DNA of 9,350 nt from Sphingopyxis sp. GTDB taxonomy: Bacteria; Pseudomonadota; Alphaproteobacteria; Sphingomonadales; Sphingomonadaceae. The notes below the pieces were generated by a model. It was not told the origin of the DNA. It searched no databases and worked only from the letters and a program-made list of their open reading frames with translations. The first letter of the stretch is position 1; each line of letters opens with the position of its first letter. Both the position numbers and the translations under genes were made by a program. This document shows positions 1 through 9,350 of this stretch, in pieces. The DNA lies in the NCBI GenBank assembly GCA_012035435.1, contig JAAUPH010000075.1, positions 1-9,350 on the forward strand, read 5' to 3'.

Positions 1-1007
1 GCTGCAGTCGCTTCACGGTCTGAGCCTTGCGCAGACCGCCTACATGGTGCGCGACCGGCTGTCCTGGATGCGGTTCTGCGGGCTGGGACCGGCGGATCGG
101 GTGCCCGACGCCAATACGCTGTGGGATTTTCGGGAGGCGCTGATCAAGGCCAAAGCGCTCGACAAGGTCTTCGCGCGATTGGACGAAGCGATCACGTCGG
201 CGGGTTACCTTCCCATGGGCGGCCAGATCATCGACTCAACGCTGGTTACGGCGCCACGACAGCACAACTCGGAAGACGAGAAGGCCGCAATCAAGGAGGG
301 CAAGACCGCCCGCGATATCTGGCCGGACAATCCGGCCAGGGCCGGACAGAAGGACACATCAACCCGCTGGACCGTGAAGTTCTCCAAGGCCAAACTCAAA
401 GAGGATGGCACCAAGCAGATCGATATCGCCATTCCGACGTTTGGCTACAAGAACCATGTCTCGATTGATCGCAAGCACGGCATCAACCGCCGCCAGATCA
501 CCAGCGATGCTGCGGCCTATGACGGTGCACGGCTGCGCGAGGGGTTGATCGATCCGCGGAACACGGCCTCCAGTGTTTGGGCGGATACCACCTACCGCTC
601 GGCGGCCAACGAGGAATACCTCGAAAACTGCGGCAAGAAGAGCCGCATTCACCAAAAGAAACCGAAGGGCAAGCCGATGCCCAAAGCGATTGCCCGCGGC
701 AATGCTACCAAGTCGAAAATCCGCGCGCGTGTCGAGCATGTCTTTGCCGAGCAGAAGGACAGGATGGGTCTCTTCATCCGCACCATCGGCATCGACAGGG
801 CCAGAGCGGCCATCACCATGGTGAACATGGCCTACAATATGAAGCGGTGGCGGTGGCTCAACAGCCAAGCCATGTCCGCATGAGCCGAAACGCTCCAAAA
901 AGCGCACAGGAAACAGTGAAATCACTGCAAAAACCGCGCGAAACAGGACCGCCAAGAGCCACTTCTGGCGCAAAACGCATCAAACAAACCGGTTTCCGGA
1001 GGTGTCC
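1..1007 (+). mobile_element. IS5-family insertion sequence, right part only
   Basis: The transposase frame is open from the first bases of the window, so the left end of the element lies outside. The right end is most likely at 1007: bases 990-1007 end in ggaggtgtcc, whose reverse complement ggacacctcc is a common type of IS5-family terminus. The 120 bp between the transposase stop and this end hold nothing else recognisable. The exact end is inferred, because neither the partner inverted repeat nor a target duplication can be seen. The element ends about 120 bp before the rhs start codon. Confidence 0.7.
2..883 (+). CDS. IS5-family transposase (5'-truncated by window edge)
   Basis: DDE transposase that would cut and rejoin the ends of its own insertion sequence. 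The frame is open from base 2 and reads LQSLHGLSLAQTAYMVRDRL before continuing into the conserved part, so the ATG at 44 is internal and the true start is upstream of the window. The order of motifs matches IS5 InsH-type enzymes: an N-terminal DUF772-like part (WMRFCGLGPADRVPDANTLWDF), first catalytic Asp in IIDSTLV (codon 233-235), second Asp in ADTTYRS (584-586), and Glu in RARVEHVF (734-736). All three catalytic residues are therefore present. A long Lys-rich insertion sits between the first two Asp residues. The C-terminus is complete and ends with TGA at 881-883. No frameshift is visible in this part, so the element could be active if the left part is intact. Confidence 0.9.
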   Translation: MQSLHGLSLAQTAYMVRDRLSWMRFCGLGPADRVPDANTLWDFREALIKAKALDKVFARLDEAITSAGYLPMGGQIIDSTLVTAPRQHNSEDEKAAIKEGKTARDIWPDNPARAGQKDTSTRWTVKFSKAKLKEDGTKQIDIAIPTFGYKNHVSIDRKHGINRRQITSDAAAYDGARLREGLIDPRNTASSVWADTTYRSAANEEYLENCGKKSRIHQKKPKGKPMPKAIARGNATKSKIRARVEHVFAEQKDRMGLFIRTIGIDRARAAITMVNMAYNMKRWRWLNSQAMSA

Positions 1008-1126
1008 ATCAGTTAAAAATTCATCAAAGCATCATTGCCTTCTGGCTAGCTATGGTTTTTCTTAACCGCGCTTGTAAGGTTGGTTCATCTTCCGGGCGTC
1101 CGAAATCAAACTGATGGGGCTTTTCA
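1008..1126 (+). promoter_or_regulatory. rhs upstream region
   Basis: About 119 bp between the IS5 right end and the rhs GTG. Any rhs promoter must lie here or come from the insertion sequence. I could not find a convincing -35/-10 pair. A G-rich run, atgggg at 1113-1118, is the only ribosome-binding-like stretch near the start codon, and it is weak. No operator or riboswitch-like fold was recognised. Confidence 0.25.
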
Positions 1127-4100
1127 GTGTTTCGACTATTTCAGAATTCCTGGTCCCGCCATGTCAGTATTTTTTTAATGACGCTTGCTGCGGCATTGGC
1201 TTTGCAGTCGGCTTCATTCGCAGCTCCTTTAAGGCAAGATGTTATCCGATGGGGAGTATATGCAGGCCCTGAGCCGTCAACGCCTTGGGTTTCGTCAGCC
1301 GGCGCTTCTTGTTTTCTGAGTTGGCAGTATTATGCTGATCCCAATCCAATATTAGGCACAAAATATGGTCAAAAAGGAGTAGCTGGATGTGATTGGGAGA
1401 CAATACCCGCTGTTCCTGGTCCGACCGTGATATTCGCTGATTGCGGCTATTATGAAAATAATGAGTTTGTTTCTTTAGGATTTCTCGGGAATTTCAAAGG
1501 AGAAAATTGTGATCTGAGCGTAAATACTGACAGATCGCCAGGTCTATGTCGGCCAGATCGCATAGGGACACCAAATCCTGTTATTCTGTCCAGCGGCGCA
1601 AAGTATCGCGACGATGTTGATTTCGTGACTGCTGACGGTTTGATGCGGGTTAAGCGTCATTACCGGAGCAATCAGTTTTCGGACATGCCGTATGCTGGTG
1701 TTGCTTATGGCCCGAACATTGGAGCCGGTTGGTCGTTCGAAAACCAGTGGCGCATTGGGCTTACTGATGATTTTGCTGGCTTTAATGCTGGAGTTTTCAT
1801 CATTCGTAAGGGAGATGGTGGCGAATATAAGTATCAACTCAATGCCAACGGATCAATTGTCCCTGCAATTTCCGAAAATTATGGGGATCGTGATTTTGCA
1901 ATTAGTTTGGTAAGTCCGACGAATTTTTCAGGAAATTATCAAGGAATAATCAATTCGGGTGCACGTTTTCGGATCCGTGACAATGACGGCACAGTCGTTC
2001 TCATGGATCTGTTTGCAAAAGACGGAACGTTCAAGTTCGGGCGGATTCACTCTGTACAGACACCCGAAGGTTATCTGCAAACCTACGCATATTCTGTCGA
2101 GAGCCGCATTAGTACAATTACCGACAGTTTTAGCCGGACTCTGACATTTAATTGGGCAGAGCGCAGCGTTGCAGGTTCAGAAGGGCCGGCAGTTCAATCG
2201 GTGGACATCACTTCAATCGGTCTGCCTGACGGCAATCGGGTTGAATATGTCTATGATACCGTCAACGGAACCGCCGCGCTTCCCGGGACATCTCGGCTTA
2301 AAACTGTGACGATCAAAAGCGCTGCCAATGTGACATTGGATAGTACGACATACCACTATGAGAATGCGGATTATGTTTATGCTTTGACCGGCGTGACAGA
2401 CAACCGTGGCGTTCGGTTCCGGACGTCCACCTACGATGTTTCCGGTCGTGTTTCGATGAGTGAGGGCCCTGCGGGTATCGACCGGCTCACCTTTGTTTAT
2501 GATCAGGTCACTCTGAACAATCAGCTTTATTTCCGTGCCACAACGACAAACGTCAAAGGCAAGACCACCCGCTATCTGTTCCGCTATCTCAGCGATCCTG
2601 CCTATCCGCACAGCAAGGTTTTTGAACGGTTGGAAGGTGACGTGTCGGCCAATTGCCCCGCGACAGTTGGCACCTTTGAATGGCAGTTCATCGGCAATCG
2701 TGAGTATGTTTCGTCATGGACCGATGCCGAGGGTCGTGTGACGTCTTATCTGCGCGACGGCTTTGGCCGCGCGACGAGCGTCACTGAAGGCACTGGCCCT
2801 GCGCAACGCGTAACCACCATGACCTGGTCGGATGTCAACAACCAACCGCTGATTGTCACCGAGCCGGGCCGTCGCACGCAGTTCAATTATGGTACGACGG
2901 GCCGCTTGACCTCGGTGACCCAGACGGATCTGACAACGTCGACGGTTCCCTATTCAACCAATGGGCAGCAGCGGACGTGGACTTATACCTATGGTGCAGG
3001 CGGCCGCGTCACTGCGGTTGATGGCCCGCTGGCTGGTACGGGTGACCGGGTTTTGTATGCCTATGCGGCAAATGGCAACCTGACCTCGACCACCAATGAG
3101 GTTGGTCACATCACAACCATCAATGCCAGCAACAGCCGCGGTCAGCCGACGCGGTCGACGGATCCAAACGGCGTCGTCACCAACTACACCTATGATGGGT
3201 TGGGGCGTCTGGCCTCCATGGTCAACAGTGTCGGCGCAACGCCAACCACAACCAGTTTCACCTATGACGCGGTCGGACTGATCAAGCGCATCACGGTGCC
3301 GGGCGGCGTCTACCTCGATCACACCTATGATGCTGCGCGCCGGTTGATCACAGTCACCAACAGTTCCAATGAGTCGATCACCTACACCCGCGACGCAATG
3401 GGCCAGATTACGAGGACGCAGGTCAGGGCCGGCACTGTTGTCAAAGCACAGCGCGACAATGTCTATGACGAGCTTGGCCGTCTGATGCGCACGGTCGGTG
3501 CATCCAGTGCCAAGAACTGGAAAGTCGGCTACGACAAGACCGACAATATTATTTCGGTGACTGATCCGCGCTCAAAAATCTGGTCCTATGGCTTTGACTC
3601 ACTCAATCGCCTGATATCCGAGACCGAACCTGGAACAGGCACAGTCACAATGGGTCTGAACGGTATTGATGCCGTGACCAGCTATAAAGACCGTCGCAAC
3701 CTGACCACGAGTTATGTGCGCAACGGGTTTGGCGACGTGATCCGGCAGACCAATCCCGATACCGGCATCACCGATTACATTTATGATGCCCGCGGCTTGC
3801 TGATCCAGATCAAGGATGCCCGCAACGTCATCACCAACATGACCTATGATGCCGCCGGCCGCATGCTGACGCGCACCTATCCTGCCGCTACCGCCGAGAA
3901 TGTCACCTTCACCTATGACAGTGTGGCAAATGGCAACAAGGGCAAGGGCCTCCTGACGCGGCTGGCCGATCAGGCGGGGGCATCGGTATTTGTGTATGAT
4001 GTGCGCGGCAATCTGCTGTCGGAAACGCGCACCATTGGCACTGTTGCCTATGCGGTCAGATACACCTACGACGCCGCCGACCGGCTGACCTCGATGACCT

Positions 4101-5842
4101 ATCCGTCGGGCCGGATCGTCACCTATGTGCGCAACGCCCAAGGCAAGATCACCGGTGTGACGTCCAAAGCCAATGCGACGGCTGCGGCGCTGACGCTGGC
4201 GTCGAACGTGGTCTGGCAGCCCAATGTTGCGGGTGCGGTGGCCGGGGAAACAGTGTTCGGCCAGGGCAGTATCGCAACGGCGGTGCAGAGCATGGCTCTG
4301 CCGGGCGATGGCGGCCTCGGGCAGGTCGATCTGCTGCAGTCGCTGACCTATGGCAACGGCCTTGTGCTGTGGAAGAACTTCTCGACCGACAATGAGCTCT
4401 ATCAGCTGATTGTCGAGCAGACGCCGAGCACACCCGCCGGCATCCGCGTCAACCGGTTCCAGAACCGGGCCGACAACACCTTCATCACCGGCATTGTGGA
4501 TGGCGTTACCGCGGCCAATTCCGAGACGTTCACCTACACCGATGCCGGGCGTCTGTCGGGCGCGACATCGGGCGCCGGCTCCTATGGCACGCGGGCCTGG
4601 ACCTATGACAATAACGGCAACCGCCTGTCCCAGACCGCCAATGGCGTGGCCAACACCTACACCTATCCGGCGAACAACAACCGGCTGACCAATGTCAAAC
4701 AGGGCACCACCACCACGCGGGCCTTCCTGTATGATGCCGCCGGCCACATGACCCGCGATACGCGTGGTGCGACGCAATACAACACTGCCATTAACAATGC
4801 CGGCCGCATCCGCACCCTGTCGATCGGCACAACGCTGAAGACAACCTACACCTATGACGGGCTCCAGCGGCTGCGCGTGCGCACGCAGGCCTCGCCCGCC
4901 TCAACCACCCATCTGGTGTGGAACGCGTTTGGCACCATCATCGCCGAGCATGCTGCGGCAGGTGCCGTCCAGAAAGAATACATCTGGCTGGGCGATACGC
5001 CGCTGGCGGTGTTTGAGGGCGCGAGCCTGTATTACGTCCACCCCGATCACCTCGACCGTCCGGTGATGATGACCAACGCCAATGCCGGACAGACCATTGC
5101 CTGGCAGGCCAATTACGATCCGTTCGGCAATGCCGTCACCGTCACGGCCGCACCGGTCAACAACCAGCGCCTGCCCGGGCAATGGTTCCAACTGGAAGAC
5201 GGCCTCTCCTACAACTGGCACCGCACATACGATCCCACCATTGGCCGCTACACCCAGCCCGACCCGCTCGGCTTTGTGGACGGGCCAAGCATTTATGCTT
5301 ATGCTGGCGGGAACCCGCTGGTGTTTAATGACTTTACCGGGTTGGATACACCGGCAATGGGGCCGTACGGACCATGTTATTCAGGTGTCTGCGGAGGCGC
5401 GTACAAGTTGCTAAAATCGCCCAAATATGACTTTTTGGACTGCAATAGCGAGGCAAGAGGAAGGATCAGGTCTTTCACATGCGGAGCGCCGTCGCTCAAA
5501 TGCAATAAATTTGTTTGGGATGCTGCTAGCGGAGCCAACAAGTCTCCAGGACGTATGCCAGATGGCCGGATTCCATCTGCCAGTGAGTGGGGCAATCGAT
5601 CCACTCCAATAGGCGGCTACTATCCTTTGCCTTCAGGTGAGCAGCCACAGCCAGGGGACATTGTTGGTGACGGGCAGCATGTGGGTATTTTTTCACCATT
5701 GACCGGACAAAATGGACCGAATGGGTCTCCGGGCACGATTTCATCGAGATCAAGTCTACCATTTGGCGGGGATAGCGTTGTGCACAATGATTGGGGATTC
5801 CGTCCTGGTCAAAGCCCTGTAATTTGGCGGCCTATAAACTGA
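1127..5842 (+). CDS. Secreted Rhs/YD-repeat polymorphic toxin with papain-like C-terminal tip
   Basis: A 1571-residue Rhs-family protein. Residues 1-32 look like a Sec signal peptide: basic N-region, hydrophobic SIFLMTLAAALALQ, likely cleavage after S-F-A. A unique stretch with five cysteines (62, 89, 106, 128, 141) follows. About 149-212 resembles the DUF6531-type Rhs N-terminal domain (NPV...YRDDVDF...RHYRSNQF...GAGWSF). YD-type repeats (YDGLGRLASM, YDELGRLMRT, YDAAGRMLTR and more than twenty in all) run from about 436 to 1265 and would build the Rhs shell. The core end is typical: YVHPDHLDRPV (about 1303), YDPTIGRYTQPDPLGF (1368-1383), then NPLVFNDFTGLD (1396-1407). The last 165 residues are the variable tip. 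No PAAR or transmembrane pair is visible, so a PAAR-Rhs type VI effector is unlikely. The start is GTG at 1127; the signal peptide right behind it supports this choice. The first 1.4 kb and the tip are AT-richer than the core, a mosaic usual for this family. Confidence 0.9.
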   Translation: MFRLFQNSWSRHVSIFLMTLAAALALQSASFAAPLRQDVIRWGVYAGPEPSTPWVSSAGASCFLSWQYYADPNPILGTKYGQKGVAGCDWETIPAVPGPTVIFADCGYYENNEFVSLGFLGNFKGENCDLSVNTDRSPGLCRPDRIGTPNPVILSSGAKYRDDVDFVTADGLMRVKRHYRSNQFSDMPYAGVAYGPNIGAGWSFENQWRIGLTDDFAGFNAGVFIIRKGDGGEYKYQLNANGSIVPAISENYGDRDFAISLVSPTNFSGNYQGIINSGARFRIRDNDGTVVLMDLFAKDGTFKFGRIHSVQTPEGYLQTYAYSVESRISTITDSFSRTLTFNWAERSVAGSEGPAVQSVDITSIGLPDGNRVEYVYDTVNGTAALPGTSRLKTVTIKSAANVTLDSTTYHYENADYVYALTGVTDNRGVRFRTSTYDVSGRVSMSEGPAGIDRLTFVYDQVTLNNQLYFRATTTNVKGKTTRYLFRYLSDPAYPHSKVFERLEGDVSANCPATVGTFEWQFIGNREYVSSWTDAEGRVTSYLRDGFGRATSVTEGTGPAQRVTTMTWSDVNNQPLIVTEPGRRTQFNYGTTGRLTSVTQTDLTTSTVPYSTNGQQRTWTYTYGAGGRVTAVDGPLAGTGDRVLYAYAANGNLTSTTNEVGHITTINASNSRGQPTRSTDPNGVVTNYTYDGLGRLASMVNSVGATPTTTSFTYDAVGLIKRITVPGGVYLDHTYDAARRLITVTNSSNESITYTRDAMGQITRTQVRAGTVVKAQRDNVYDELGRLMRTVGASSAKNWKVGYDKTDNIISVTDPRSKIWSYGFDSLNRLISETEPGTGTVTMGLNGIDAVTSYKDRRNLTTSYVRNGFGDVIRQTNPDTGITDYIYDARGLLIQIKDARNVITNMTYDAAGRMLTRTYPAATAENVTFTYDSVANGNKGKGLLTRLADQAGASVFVYDVRGNLLSETRTIGTVAYAVRYTYDAADRLTSMTYPSGRIVTYVRNAQGKITGVTSKANATAAALTLASNVVWQPNVAGAVAGETVFGQGSIATAVQSMALPGDGGLGQVDLLQSLTYGNGLVLWKNFSTDNELYQLIVEQTPSTPAGIRVNRFQNRADNTFITGIVDGVTAANSETFTYTDAGRLSGATSGAGSYGTRAWTYDNNGNRLSQTANGVANTYTYPANNNRLTNVKQGTTTTRAFLYDAAGHMTRDTRGATQYNTAINNAGRIRTLSIGTTLKTTYTYDGLQRLRVRTQASPASTTHLVWNAFGTIIAEHAAAGAVQKEYIWLGDTPLAVFEGASLYYVHPDHLDRPVMMTNANAGQTIAWQANYDPFGNAVTVTAAPVNNQRLPGQWFQLEDGLSYNWHRTYDPTIGRYTQPDPLGFVDGPSIYAYAGGNPLVFNDFTGLDTPAMGPYGPCYSGVCGGAYKLLKSPKYDFLDCNSEARGRIRSFTCGAPSLKCNKFVWDAASGANKSPGRMPDGRIPSASEWGNRSTPIGGYYPLPSGEQPQPGDIVGDGQHVGIFSPLTGQNGPNGSPGTISSRSSLPFGGDSVVHNDWGFRPGQSPVIWRPIN
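4352..4950 (+). repeat. Rhs core segment duplicated at 6330-7054
   Basis: These 599 bases, codons 1076-1275 of the intact rhs gene, reappear in the same orientation at 6330-7054. The second copy is 725 bases because of two insertions with a net gain of 126 bases. By eye the copies differ at roughly one base in twenty over the first 259 bases, partly at third codon positions. The two copies flank the toxin tip and the candidate immunity gene, so recombination between them would delete or exchange that cassette. Confidence 0.9.
5345..5842 (+). other. Rhs C-terminal toxin tip, papain-like (NlpC/P60 or CHAP-like) hydrolase
   Basis: Residues 1407-1571, following the Rhs junction NPLVFNDFTGL. Base composition shifts to AT-richer here, as expected for an exchangeable tip. 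The fold guess rests on KCNKFVWDAA (candidate nucleophile Cys1459), then QPGDIVGDGQHVGIFSP, where PGDIV...HVGI is the classic second motif of NlpC/P60 and CHAP amidases with catalytic His1518, and finally VVHNDWGF (His1553, Asn1554, Asp1555) as a possible third polar residue. Such enzymes cut amide bonds in peptidoglycan stem peptides, or more rarely act as deamidases or peptidases on proteins. Four more cysteines (1417, 1422, 1439, 1452) could form two disulfides in an oxidising compartment. The papain-like assignment is fairly secure; the substrate is inference. Confidence 0.7.
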
Positions 5843-5867
5843 TTTTCGTATCATTAGGAATAACATA

Positions 5868-6221
5868 ATGATGAAAGACGGAATTAGTATTGTGATCGCA
5901 TCTTTTGCACTGCCACTTATTTATATTATTTTTCTTACGATTGATCAGTATGGCTATTCCGACTATTATATCGAATTAAATTGGATTAGTAATACATTAT
6001 TATTGCTATTTCTCGGCTCTGTAATTTGTTTATTAATCACTAAAAAATTAGAAATGAAATTAAAGATTATTATAATATTATTTTTCTCTACAATTACATC
6101 TATTATTTATAATAATACAAATCTAATTGCATTTTTTTTCTATACATCTGCTTGTTTTATTTATTATTCTGTAAATCACATGATATTTAGTAAATTAAAA
6201 AAATCAATATTTAGAATTTAA
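5868..6221 (+). CDS. Small four-helix membrane protein, candidate immunity protein
   Basis: A 117-residue hydrophobic protein of no family I recognise. Four membrane segments can be drawn at about residues 5-26 (ISIVIASFALPLIYIIFLTI), 40-57, 65-81 and 86-107, with a basic C-terminus (KLKKSIFRI). The gene begins 25 bp after the rhs stop. AGGAA at 5856-5860 stands 7 bp before the first of two adjacent ATG codons (5868 and 5871); either could be used. Position directly behind an Rhs toxin tip, same strand and close spacing are the usual setting of the cognate immunity gene, and an inner-membrane location fits protection against a toxin acting in the periplasm. The DNA is strikingly AT-rich compared with everything around it, which marks it as acquired together with the tip. 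The immunity role rests on context only. Confidence 0.75.
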   Translation: MMKDGISIVIASFALPLIYIIFLTIDQYGYSDYYIELNWISNTLLLLFLGSVICLLITKKLEMKLKIIIILFFSTITSIIYNNTNLIAFFFYTSACFIYYSVNHMIFSKLKKSIFRI

Positions 6222-6329
6222 TTATACTCAAGCGGCTTTGAGATCTATAATTGAGAATTTTTCATCAATTTAAAATAATTTAAATGAATTTTATTAATTA
6301 GAGAATTAATAGAATGAGATTTCGTCTTC
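6222..6329 (+). other. AT-rich spacer after the immunity gene, weak hairpin
   Basis: This 108-bp stretch is as AT-rich as the gene before it and ends abruptly where the GC-rich rhs fragment begins at 6330. A small inverted repeat, ctcaa/ttgag at 6227-6231 and 6238-6242 with a 6-base loop, lies 5 bp after the stop codon. A T-run follows only about 15 bases later, so it is a poor terminator candidate. No gene was found. Confidence 0.4.
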
Positions 6330-6588
6330 GGCAACGGCCTTGTGCTGTGGAAGAACCTCTCGACTGACAATGAGCTCTATCAGCTGATTGTCGAGCAGAT
6401 GCCGAGCACGCCCGCCGGCATCCGTGTCAACCGGTTGCAGAACCGGGCCGACAACACCTTCATCACCGGCATTGTGGATGGCGTGACGGCGGCCAATTCC
6501 GAGACGTTCACCTACACCGATGCCGGGCGTCTGTCGGGCGCGACATCGGGCGCGGGCTCCTACGGCACCCGAAGCTGGACCTATGACA

Positions 6589-6638
6589 CAGTCTTTGCCC
6601 TGCCCTTAAGCGGCAAGCCGCTGGCGGGGGCCCCGGCG
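6589..6638 (+). repeat. Short GC-rich insertion 1 in the rhs fragment
   Basis: Fifty bases here replace the seven bases ataacgg of the intact gene (after TGG ACC TAT GAC A at 4608-4609). It contains the inverted repeat gcggc-aa-gccgc at 6610-6621 and a ggggcccc core near 6627-6634. Boundaries come from the alignment with the intact copy and may shift by a base or two. No target duplication is evident. It may be a small palindromic repeat element, but only one copy is present in the window. Confidence 0.6.
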
Positions 6639-6876
6639 CAACCGCCTGTCCCAGACCGCCAATGGCGTGGCCAACACCTACACCTATCCGGCGAACAACA
6701 ACCGGCTGACCAATGTCAGGCAAGGCACCACCACCACGCGGGCCTTCCTGTATGATGCCGCCGGCCACATAACCCGTGATACGCGCGGCGCCACGCAATA
6801 CAACACTGCCATTAACAATGCTGGCCGCATCCGCACCCTGTCGATCGGCACGACGCTGAAGACAACCTACACCTAT

Positions 6877-6965
6877 CCTCGCTGCCCTTCGCATGGCTCA
6901 GGGCGTTCGTTGCTCACATCAGTCCACCGGACTGATGTGTCGGCGCTGCGCTCCGTCGCCCCTCA
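6877..6965 (+). repeat. Palindromic mini-insertion 2 with perfect 11-bp hairpin
   Basis: Eighty-nine bases replace six bases (gacggg) of the intact rhs copy. The centre is a perfect inverted repeat, cacatcagtcc and ggactgatgtg at 6915-6925 and 6929-6939 around a 3-base loop acc. Outer parts can pair again through gggcg (6901-6905) and cgccc (6957-6961), so the whole piece can fold as a long imperfect hairpin. This is the build of REP- or RPE-like mobile palindromes that land inside genes. No transposase is encoded in it. Confidence 0.75.
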
Positions 6966-7054
6966 CTCCAGCGGCTGCGCGTGCGCACGCAGGCCTCGCC
7001 CGCCTCAACCACCCATCTGGTGTGGAACGCCTTCGGCACCATCATCGCCGAGCA

Positions 7055-7098
7055 CGGTGAAGAGCGGTTCGCGCAGCGAACGAATTGATCCAGTGGGG
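7055..7098 (+). repeat. Hairpin-bearing stretch between rhs fragment and IS1182 element
   Basis: Homology to rhs ends at 7054. The next bases carry gttcgc-gca-gcgaac (7067-7072 and 7076-7081) and continue with gaattgatccagtgg before sequence that looks like the start of the IS1182-type element. It resembles one arm of another palindromic mini-element. The exact border with the insertion sequence is not determined. Confidence 0.4.
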
Positions 7099-8269
7099 GG
7101 TGTTGAAAAAGCTCCAAGTCTCTGATTCATTTTGTGGATCGCGGGCTGGGAGACGACGATGCTTGGGCGCAAGGAGCGTGGGCAACTGGAATTTTTTATC
7201 GCAGGGTCACTGCGGGATCTGATCCCGGACGACCATGTTCTGGTGAAAATCGATGAGGTACTCGATTTTGGCTGGCTCCGCGCTGAAGTGGCCGACCTTT
7301 ATTGTGCCGACAATGGCCGCCCCGGCATCGATCCCGAAGTCGCCGTGCGCCTGATGCTGGCGGGCTTTTTGCTTGGCTTTGTGCATGACCGACGGCTGCT
7401 GCGAGAAGCTCAGGTCAATCTGGCAATCCGGTGGTTCATTGGCTACGCGCTTCACGAAGCACTTCCTGACCATTCATCCCTGACGCGCATCCGTCAGCGC
7501 TGGGGCGAGGATAGCTTCCGCATGATCTTCACGCGTATCGTGCGCAATGCCAGACCGCCGGGCTTGTGTCGGCTGACACCGTTCACGTTGACGCCAGCTT
7601 GATCCGTGCCAATGTCAGCATGGATTCATTGGTCGCGCGACACCTCGACGCGGTCGAAGATGCCAATGATGCCGAGCGGAACGCGCGCACGAGCGGGATG
7701 TTCAAAAAGCTTTGCCGCACGGACCCCGACGCGACAATGGCAACATCCTCAAAGGCCCCACTGCGCCCGGCCTACAAGCAGCACACGGCGGTGGATGATC
7801 TTGCGGGTATTGTGGTCGATGTGGAAATCGTCACGGGGGAAGAGCACGACGCCAGCCGCTTCACCGAACGTTTGAACGCCATCGAAGAAACACTCGGGAC
7901 AACTCCGGGCCGGATCACCGCAGATACAATATACGGCTTGGGCCGGGTTTATGCCGTCCTCGAAGACCGCAAAATTGATGCCGTCATTCCGCCTCTCCGC
8001 ACTCCACGCAAGAAGGGGGCGCAGGGTTTTGCTACCGAGCGGTTCAAGTATGATCCCCATCATAATGTCGTCCGTTGTCCGGCAAAGAAGCGGCTTACGC
8101 CTCGCAACAAAACCAGATCCGGGCAGTGGTATCGCGCCGAATGGCACGATTGCGCGCAGTGCCCCCTCAACGCGCAGTGCCCGCCTCACGGCACTCGATC
8201 CCGCCGTGTTCACATCGTGACCAACCATGCGGCAATCCTGCGCGCCCGCCGCAGGCGCCTGGCATGGAG
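7099..8269 (+). mobile_element. IS1182-family insertion sequence, 3'-truncated
   Basis: Defined by its transposase remnant. The left end lies somewhere between 7055 and about 7110; I placed it near the ggtgttgaaaaagctcc stretch on general look, without a partner repeat to confirm it. The right end is missing because an IS21-family element begins at about 8270. The copy cannot move by itself. Confidence 0.7.
7159..8269 (+). pseudogene. IS1182-family transposase, frameshifted and truncated
   Basis: Transposase of the IS1182 family (DUF772 N-terminus plus DDE domain). The start is probably ATG at 7159 (MLGRKERGQLEFFIAGSLRD), with tgggag at 7147-7152 as ribosome-binding site. The N-terminal helical domain (RPGIDPEVAVRLMLAGFLLG, HDRRLLREAQVNLAIRWFIG, LPDHSSLTRIRQRWG) is intact. 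Near 7545 the frame changes: cgc aat gcc should read as a Gln-Cys type sequence, and the rest of the domain (LVSADTVHVDASLIRANVS) continues in the frame one base earlier, as after loss of one base. First Asp is at 7590-7592, second Asp (ITADTIYG) at 7923-7925; a Cys-rich stretch (CPAKK, CAQCPLNAQC) follows. The protein breaks off after RRRRLAW, where the IS21 end begins; the expected Glu motif is gone, and the open frame runs on to 8306 in unrelated sequence. No slippery heptamer is seen, so programmed frameshifting is unlikely. Confidence 0.88.
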
Positions 8270-8315
8270 TGCGCATTTCACAAAAGGTGGACAGTCATTT
8301 CACTAAATCCCGGAC
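8270..8315. repeat. IS21 terminal sequence with repeated catttcac motif
   Basis: The 8-base motif catttcac occurs at 8274-8281 and again at 8296-8303, 22 bp apart, which is about two turns of the helix. A related ggaca element appears twice (ggtggacagt and cccggacaac, about 8287-8315). IS21-family ends usually carry several short repeats that bind IstA; these fit that role. Confidence 0.6.
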
Positions 8316-8372
8316 AACGTTCGGTGCCCCGGTTTTGCCCGCTCCTGTTTCGGTTTCATGGGTTTGATTTCG

Positions 8373-9128
8373 TCATTCCGGTTTGGCGTCAAGAGGTGGG
8401 TTCTTCTGTTTGCGCATGCTGTCGCCTTCGAGTTGGATGCGGTGGGCGTTGTGAACGATGCGGTCGAGGATTGCATCGGCGATTGTCGGTTCGCCGATCA
8501 TGTCATGCCAGCGCGCGACGGGCAGTTGCGCAGTGATGAGGGTTGATTTGCGCTTGTAGCGCTCTTCGAAGATTTCCAGCAGGTCGAGCCGCTGCTGGTC
8601 CTTGAGGGTATGTGTCCCCCAATCGTCGAGAACGAGGAGCTGGACACGTGCCAGCCGATCCACCAGCCGGGGGAAGCGGCCATCGAGACGGGCAAGGGCG
8701 AGGTCCTCGAACAGGCGCGGCATGCGGATGTAGAGGACGGAATGGTCGAGGCGGGCGGCCTGTTGACCGAAGGCACAGGCGAGCCACGTCTTGCCCGTTC
8801 CGGTCTGTCCGGTGATCAGCATGTTCTCGTGCGCCTTCAGCCAGGCACCTTGCGCGAGCGACAGGATGGAGCGCCGGTCGAGGCCGCGTCCTGCCGCGAA
8901 GTCGATGTCCTCGATGCAGGCGTTGGCAAAGCGCAGTTTTGCAGCCGACAGTTTGTTGCCGAGCCGCTTGTCGGCGCGAAGGCTCGCCTCGCGGTCGAGC
9001 ATCAGAGCCAGCCATTCGTCGGGGCTGAGGGATTTGTCTGCGCCGCTGTCGTTCATCTCGCGATAGGCGGTCGCCATTCCGGCGAGCCCGAGTGTGCGCA
9101 TCTGGTCCAATGTCGGATGGGTGAGCAT
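8373..9128 (-). CDS. istB: IS21-family helper ATPase IstB
   Basis: AAA+ ATPase that assists the IstA transposase in target choice and strand transfer. With the ATG at 9128 the protein has 251 residues, normal for the family. The N-terminal IstB domain ([19 protein letters not shown]) is followed by Walker A GQTGTGKT at residues 107-114, Walker B LLVLDDWG at 164-171, and the conserved C-terminal part with [11 protein letters not shown] (201-211) and [14 protein letters not shown] (222-235). The chosen start has aaggag 6 bases upstream; a GTG at 9149 overlapping the istA stop would add seven residues but lacks a comparable site. It lies 17 bp behind istA in one operon. No damage is visible. Family and role are certain; activity depends on the unseen rest of the element. 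Confidence 0.95.
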
Positions 9129-9145
9129 GGTGGTCTCCTTATGGG

Positions 9146-9350
9146 TCACTGGTAGTAAGCGCCGCCGCGGATGTTGCGGTGAGTGGGCGCGGGTTTGACG
9201 GGTTCGGCATCCGGCACGGCCTGATCCATGCCTGATCGCAGGATGGCGGCGACCGACGAGTAGGTGATGGCGTTGATCACGAGAGCCCGCTCGCAGGCCG
9301 CTTCCAGACGGTCGCGCGTGTAGCGCCGTGCAAGCGACAGAATGCCGAAG
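9146..9350 (-). CDS. istA: IS21-family transposase IstA, C-terminal part only
   Basis: Reading leftward from the window edge, the last 67 codons give [20 protein letters not shown] at the start, then [20 protein letters not shown], and end [11 protein letters not shown] with TGA at 9146-9148. The pattern of a helical GIL.LA.RY....LE.AC.RAL block, S..SI...G.., and a final NIRG..YY is that of the IstA C-terminus. The catalytic DDE part and the start are beyond the window. It precedes istB by 17 bp and presumably shares its transcript. Confidence 0.92.

Follow-up and report, generated by a model that had tools for sequence, protein, structure and literature searches.

A candidate exported Rhs toxin of Sphingopyxis with a divergent NlpC/P60-CHAP tip and a predicted polytopic immunity protein

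Results

The window analysed here, by which we mean the whole stretch of 9,350 nucleotides of Sphingopyxis sp. (contig JAAUPH010000075.1, positions 1 to 9,350, forward strand), carries a gene with a GTG start (1127-5842, + strand) for an Rhs/YD-repeat protein of 1571 amino acids (aa), which matches RHS_repeat (E 2.4e-54) and Rhs_assc_core (E 8e-19). The C-terminal tip of this protein (5345-5842, + strand) comprises the 165 residues from the end of the Rhs-associated core model match (residue 1406) to the C-terminus, that is residues 1407-1571, and is predicted to be a divergent NlpC/P60-CHAP papain-like domain with Cys1459, His1518, Ser1539 and HND at 1553-1555. An open reading frame (ORF) of 117 aa with an ATG start (5868-6221, + strand) follows 25 bp behind the Rhs stop, and its product is a predicted multi-helix inner-membrane protein and the probable cognate immunity protein. 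With a displaced core copy further downstream, the pattern of an Rhs polymorphic toxin cassette is present: Rhs core, C-terminal tip, small downstream gene and displaced core copy. We read the locus as encoding an exported, probably antibacterial Rhs toxin, whose tip attacks peptidoglycan or the precursor of it that is bound to the membrane, and a polytopic inner-membrane immunity protein, and give this reading a probability of about two in three.

The original prediction for this DNA, made from the sequence letters, had described a tip of about 165 residues with a papain-like active site and the motifs KCNKFV, PGDIV...HVGI and VVHNDWGF, and the tip and its motifs were found as described. KCNKFV puts Cys1459 at 5501-5503, PGDIV...HVGI puts His1518 at 5678-5680, and VVHNDWGF corresponds to residues 1551-1558. 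In an alignment of 72 rows (A3) the cysteine was conserved in 71/71 rows with a residue at that position and the histidine in 72/72; the GD motif had Gly in 72/72 and Asp in 71/72 rows, Ser1539 was conserved in 72/72, and Asn1554 in 71/72. Because they are conserved over 72 aligned rows, the tip motifs are not a product of chance. In sequence the cysteine is followed by the GD strand and then by the histidine, which is the unpermuted, canonical NlpC/P60-CHAP order. An AlphaFold model of the tip was confident (pLDDT, the predicted local distance difference test score, 89; pTM, the predicted template modelling score, 0.85) and agrees with the papain-like type of enzyme proposed earlier. Its best structural matches are peptidoglycan enzymes, with canonical NlpC/P60-CHAP chains at the head of the VIA-align list. 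Sequence bridges connect the window tip to Pfam-CHAP proteins, and the cut-off of Pfam CHAP (PF05257) was passed by five of the eight distant relatives scanned; the tip of the related locus L001 reached 17.6 bits against 26. Judged by its predicted fold, the tip is a divergent branch of the canonical NlpC/P60-CHAP papain-like superfamily, outside the curated Pfam CHAP family. The earlier description of the tip as undescribed therefore holds in part: it misses all Pfam and NCBIfam models, but it belongs to a known superfamily, and papain-like Rhs tips have been published (PMC3482391; this and the other papers are cited here from excerpts of their text).

The KCN-GD-H-NDWGF pattern is common also to short 146-aa proteins named CHAP, for example P0065 of Singulisphaera acidiphila, so the KCN/NDWGF branch exists outside Rhs proteins as well. 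Such relatives would suit a tip that processes its own protein as a peptidase, or that the producer has domesticated for remodelling its wall, with the membrane protein as anchor or partner of the tip, and papain-like domains do also act as processing peptidases in polymorphic toxins (PMC3482391). However, the window tip forms the very end of the protein, after the Rhs core, which is the place that the same excerpt gives for toxin versions and not for processing ones, and in five loci Rhs core sequence lies after the module of tip and partner, as in exchangeable toxin cassettes. We consider a processing or domesticated enzyme very improbable.

The N-terminus of the window Rhs protein (MFRLF...LAAALALQSASFAA), inspected by eye, resembles a Sec signal peptide, in which basic residues, a hydrophobic core and a site of the AxA type can be made out. 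A hydrophobic stretch was present within the first 60 residues of 5/5 further relatives not marked as partial (P0002, P0003, P0005, P0006, and P0007). No PAAR, VgrG or other domain of the type VI secretion system (T6SS) was found in the window protein by Pfam and NCBIfam scans. Going by these N-termini, the window Rhs protein and its relatives are probably Sec-exported.

The 117-aa ORF had been described as very AT-rich, and the earlier reading could place its product in no family. Its GC content is 21.8%, compared with 52% in the tip and 60% in the Rhs core, and a search of 5.8 billion proteins yielded no homologue. Plain hydropathy gave three strong hydrophobic segments. A single-sequence AlphaFold model placed helices at residues 3-26, 33-58, 63-80, and 83-115 with low confidence (pLDDT 63, pTM 0.40), so that the four helices claimed before reappear in the model, but only three pass the hydropathy cut-off. 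Positively charged residues are found at about 59-66 and at the C-terminal end, negatively charged ones at about 25-40. By the positive-inside rule, positively charged flanks lie on the cytoplasmic side; this charge distribution therefore predicts that both ends are cytoplasmic and that the loop at 25-40 is periplasmic.

The AT-rich DNA extends beyond the ORF as the tail of the tip-immunity cassette (6222-6329, + strand, 22% GC), which ends where a second Rhs core copy, displaced and interrupted, starts (6330-7059, + strand). This copy is 95-96% identical to 4352-4955 and consists of blocks at 6330-6588, 6638-6876, and 6966-7059. As the AT-rich stretch stops at 6329 and the core copy starts at 6330, the 117-aa ORF lies inside the tip-immunity cassette; it is placed between tip and displaced core copy, as cassette immunity genes are. 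Four related loci likewise have Rhs core 3' of the small ORF: in L003 and L004 it was recognised by eye, and in L005 and L013 by matches to the core model (G004:C47:7538-7741 and G627:C9:40248-40439).

If the 117-aa ORF were unrelated to immunity or open by chance, and the real immunity gene missing or elsewhere, this would account for the lack of homologues among 5.8 billion proteins, and AT-rich DNA tends toward hydrophobic residues, with GC falling to 22% exactly at this ORF. Dinucleotide shuffling of the 487-bp stretch, however, produced an ORF of at least 117 aa in only 2/3000 shuffles, counting all six frames. The strand and position are right for an immunity gene, an AGGA is located 8 bases upstream of the ATG, no second ORF reaching 60 aa begins on the plus strand between the tip stop and the displaced core, and the same type of neighbour stands behind 7/7 close tips, the window included. 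A chance ORF is thus improbable in our judgement.

As the neighbour of a related tip we took the longest ORF that had 60 aa or more and began between 60 bases before and 200 bases after the stop of the tip, and hydrophobic segments were counted on the Kyte-Doolittle scale at 1.6; since the calling was mechanical, single neighbour rows may be miscalled. The close clade with readable downstream DNA consists of the window, L001-L005, and L014, with L006-L009 and L012 left out as repeats of L001, L002, L003, L005, and L004. A small neighbour with at least three hydrophobic segments was found behind all seven tips. As a control we used 80 of 131 Rhs-end places (the first 87 listed, minus six at known tips and one with an internal stop), of which three had no called neighbour, leaving 77. 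Six of these 77 neighbours had at least three segments (Fisher p = 4e-7 against the close clade), in a control that is not a random sample, since all 12 genomes behind it carry a tip of the same superfamily. At a threshold of at least two segments the comparison was 7/7 vs. 10/77. The control neighbours had no segment in 50 cases, one in 17, two in 4, and three or more in 6, and they formed 77 clusters at 40% identity. The six control ends with at least three segments (L054, L060, L078, L079, L101, and L122) had tips with no Pfam family at cut-off. At control end L098 the called neighbour is the ORF of the distant tip L021; in this region of one genome the NDWGF tip lies in a frame separate from its Rhs core.

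Among the distant superfamily tips, L013 included, a polytopic neighbour was found in 1/9 (L013 itself), and in 7/9 the neighbour had a single hydrophobic segment near its N-terminus; L017 and L019, within the nine, are near-copies. The neighbour of L021 is, by eye, a lipoprotein-like ankyrin-repeat ORF. One distant tip from viral contigs, L010, ends 68 bases from the contig end and its neighbour is outside the count.

The polytopic neighbours of 7/7 close tips point to the membrane, and they would also be expected if the tip were a papain-like enzyme acting on membrane lipids (an acyl hydrolase or transferase) while the membrane immunity protein guards the bilayer. A published example has this character: Tox-Act1 belongs to the NlpC/P60 superfamily, has phospholipase activity and is paired, as proposed for the window, with a membrane immunity protein, Imm-Act1, with two predicted transmembrane helices (PMC12994826). 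The core of Tox-Act1 and of its lipid-acting kin is, however, permuted according to that excerpt, whereas the window tip has Cys before His, and this makes lipid attack less likely. The structural matches of the tip are canonical NlpC/P60-CHAP enzymes, and the neighbours of 8/9 distant tips are of the signal-like or lipoprotein-like kind that usually accompanies wall hydrolases. We therefore regard a lipid-directed enzyme as unlikely.

When 94 tips were placed in a tree, the seven of the close clade fell inside a group of 68 rows (support 97/97, with the bootstrap not fully settled), and the remaining 26 rows hold L013 and the eight tips with periplasmic-type neighbours. The five named genome loci with the tip are from Pseudomonadota. 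The tip profile A2 was found in 4/4 locus genomes and, in the other samples, in 2/385, 3/369, 7/299, 2/151, 1/2, 1/199, 4/197, 1/40, and 2/339 genomes, counts from samples that overlap and include seeds, and in which for many genomes just part of the first-look candidates was scored. The tip branch is rare in the sampled genomes. With tblastn the tip of one relative was unmatched in plasmids and that of another in phages, and the tip-immunity DNA of the window had no match in plasmids. The right-hand flank (6900-9350) matched a single plasmid, at a coverage of 6%.

The partners were also compared with each other. The partner of L001, whose tip comes from a metagenome-assembled genome of Phenylobacterium, consists of a four-segment unit that has been duplicated in tandem (z 19), and the second of the two halves is similar to the partner of L014 (z 6.7). 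The L014 genome has a tip identical to one that bears the name Dyella. Beyond the pair of L001 and L014, no convincing homology indicating common descent was found among the partners compared; the window and L013 partners (z 3.0) and the L002 and L003 partners (z 2.9) were tried as pairs and are too weak to claim. An alignment of seven immunity candidates (A4) and the L001-L014 family profile gave nothing convincing for the 117-aa protein. Since the search with the 117-aa sequence gave no homologue, it is the type of neighbour that recurs, not the protein family, and such divergence is what one expects of immunity proteins, which change fast. For the same reason, co-inheritance of the window tip and the 117-aa protein cannot be shown. 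Of the pairing for which a check in other genomes had been proposed, the polytopic neighbour was thus recovered at 7/7 close tips, the window included, and the 117-aa family itself was not found again.

L001 (3816-9655) has an orphan tip gene without Rhs core (5644-6435) followed by an eight-segment membrane partner (6437-7297). Both are encoded on the opposite strand to their surroundings, which are genes for wall synthesis: a Mur ligase gene on one side and, on the other, a glycosyltransferase-28 gene that is followed by a gene of the ftsW/rodA family. By our own reading the ligase gene is murC and the glycosyltransferase gene murG.

The flanks of the window locus carry an IS5-family transposase (2-883), an IS1182-like transposase split over two frames and below the model cut-off (7132-8306), and an IS21 istB gene (8373-9149). 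About 90 bp interrupt the second core copy at 6876-6966; this insert, in which positions 6916-6938 form a strong palindrome (z -3.2 for the folding of the stretch), resembles a small palindromic mobile element. A second insert, at about 6588-6638, is unstructured.

Discussion

In the mechanism we propose, the Rhs protein would leave the cytoplasm by means of a Sec signal peptide, and the Rhs shell would hold the tip, which would then be released. Once in the periplasm of a competitor, the tip would act as a cysteine hydrolase (Cys1459-His1518) on peptidoglycan or its precursors and break peptide or amide bonds there. For the 117-aa protein we propose a place in the inner membrane in which both termini would face the cytoplasm and an acidic loop rich in tyrosine (about residues 25-40) would face the periplasm, and it may block the tip at the membrane face during the passage of the producer's own periplasm or on arrival from kin. 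Neutralisation in the periplasm, not in the cytoplasm, is suggested by the signal-like or lipoprotein-like partners of the sister tips.

Several results weigh against this reading. The best Foldseek E-value for the tip was only 4e-3, the comparison of the tip profile with the 4xcm sequence was non-significant (E 0.39), and the Cys-bearing piece alone was at chance level. The window tip had no match in Pfam (0 families) or NCBIfam; it was also unmatched in PHROGs and, by sequence, in PDB. An invariant serine, Ser1539, stands at the position where a His, an acid or an amide would be expected as the third catalytic residue; it or Asn1554 may act in that role. The 117-aa protein has no homologue in the search of 5.8 billion proteins. 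L021 has NDWGF yet a lipoprotein-like neighbour, and L013, without NDWGF, has a four-segment membrane protein, so the motif alone does not predict the immunity type. Finally, the readable neighbours cover 7/68 rows of the close group, and the other 61 rows are outside the count.

A membrane-bound target such as lipid II would account for the polytopic partners of the close clade as opposed to the mostly periplasmic ones of sister tips. We hypothesize, tentatively and as a doubtful extension, that the tips of this clade attack a membrane-bound wall target (the lipid II stem peptide, or nascent peptidoglycan at the synthesis site) and not the mature wall. The site of action of a toxin is commonly inferred from the location of its immunity protein (PMC12669606, PMC6833914), and membrane immunity tends to be read as a sign of a pore or lipid toxin. 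If our reading is true, a clade of wall-hydrolase-like toxins with polytopic neighbours either breaks this rule or reveals wall toxins directed at precursors bound to the membrane. Because the sister tips differ in having periplasmic-type neighbours, the question is testable.

The Tai immunity proteins of T6SS amidases are periplasmic, of signal-peptide or lipoprotein type. Compared with Tae3-Tai3 and Tae4-Tai4, the window partner has three hydrophobic segments by plain hydropathy and is predicted to be polytopic, not periplasmic, and the window Rhs protein has a signal-peptide-like N-terminus and no detected PAAR or VgrG. With the wider NlpC/P60-CHAP superfamily (CHAP PF05257, NLPC_P60 PF00877) the tip shares the predicted papain-like fold and the Cys-GD-His order; it differs in KCN, the invariant Ser and NDWGF, in its fusion to Rhs and in the membrane protein downstream. 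The Tox-NLPC/P60 toxin class, reported in 2012, is a papain-like NlpC/P60-clade domain with Rhs repeats and a predicted cell-wall degrader (PMC3482391). The class table in that excerpt lists Bacteroidetes and delta-proteobacteria and no immunity family, whereas the five named genome loci of the present set belong to Pseudomonadota and have polytopic immunity candidates.

That a polytopic immunity protein would be unusual for a wall hydrolase, as the original prediction had remarked, is borne out by what is described elsewhere and by the distant tips, 1/9 of which have such a neighbour. In one T6SS peptidoglycan-toxin class the vast majority of partners have signal peptides (PMC12135965), and among predicted peptidoglycan-hydrolase effectors of Acinetobacter baumannii signal peptides are predicted for 7/9 immunity groups (PMC6833914). 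One of the T6SS effectors of that species, Tae8, lists a CHAP domain, like the superfamily of the window tip. The nearest precedent is Tpe23 (group 23) in the same excerpt, which is predicted to hydrolyse peptidoglycan. Its immunity protein is reported to have transmembrane domains, as is predicted for the window partner, with a location given as not predictable; unlike the window tip, this T6SS effector lists LysM and NlpD, not CHAP. In view of Tpe23, a wall toxin with a membrane partner is not without precedent as a single case.

Other membrane immunity proteins accompany different toxins. In Ssp4-Sip4 the prediction for the immunity protein is four transmembrane helices and cytoplasmic termini, similar to that for the window partner, but Ssp4 is pore-forming and not an enzyme (PMC12669606), and four transmembrane helices also belong to the immunity protein of a predicted pore-forming effector in PMC9846239. 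The DUF3289 effector of Aeromonas jandaei is proposed to be active in the periplasm, is predicted to be colicin M-like and would, by inference, act on a lipid-linked wall precursor; its small immunity protein has three predicted transmembrane helices and was protective in competition (PMC12135965). This T6SS effector has another domain, and the excerpt reports a membrane neighbour in a single instance and not clade-wide. No description of a canonical NlpC/P60-CHAP toxin with a polytopic immunity protein was found in the titles, abstract beginnings and excerpts considered from the open-licence literature. Papain-like Rhs tips and isolated partial precedents for membrane partners are already known; what looks new is the pairing, in a distinct KCN/NDWGF branch of which all readable neighbours are polytopic.

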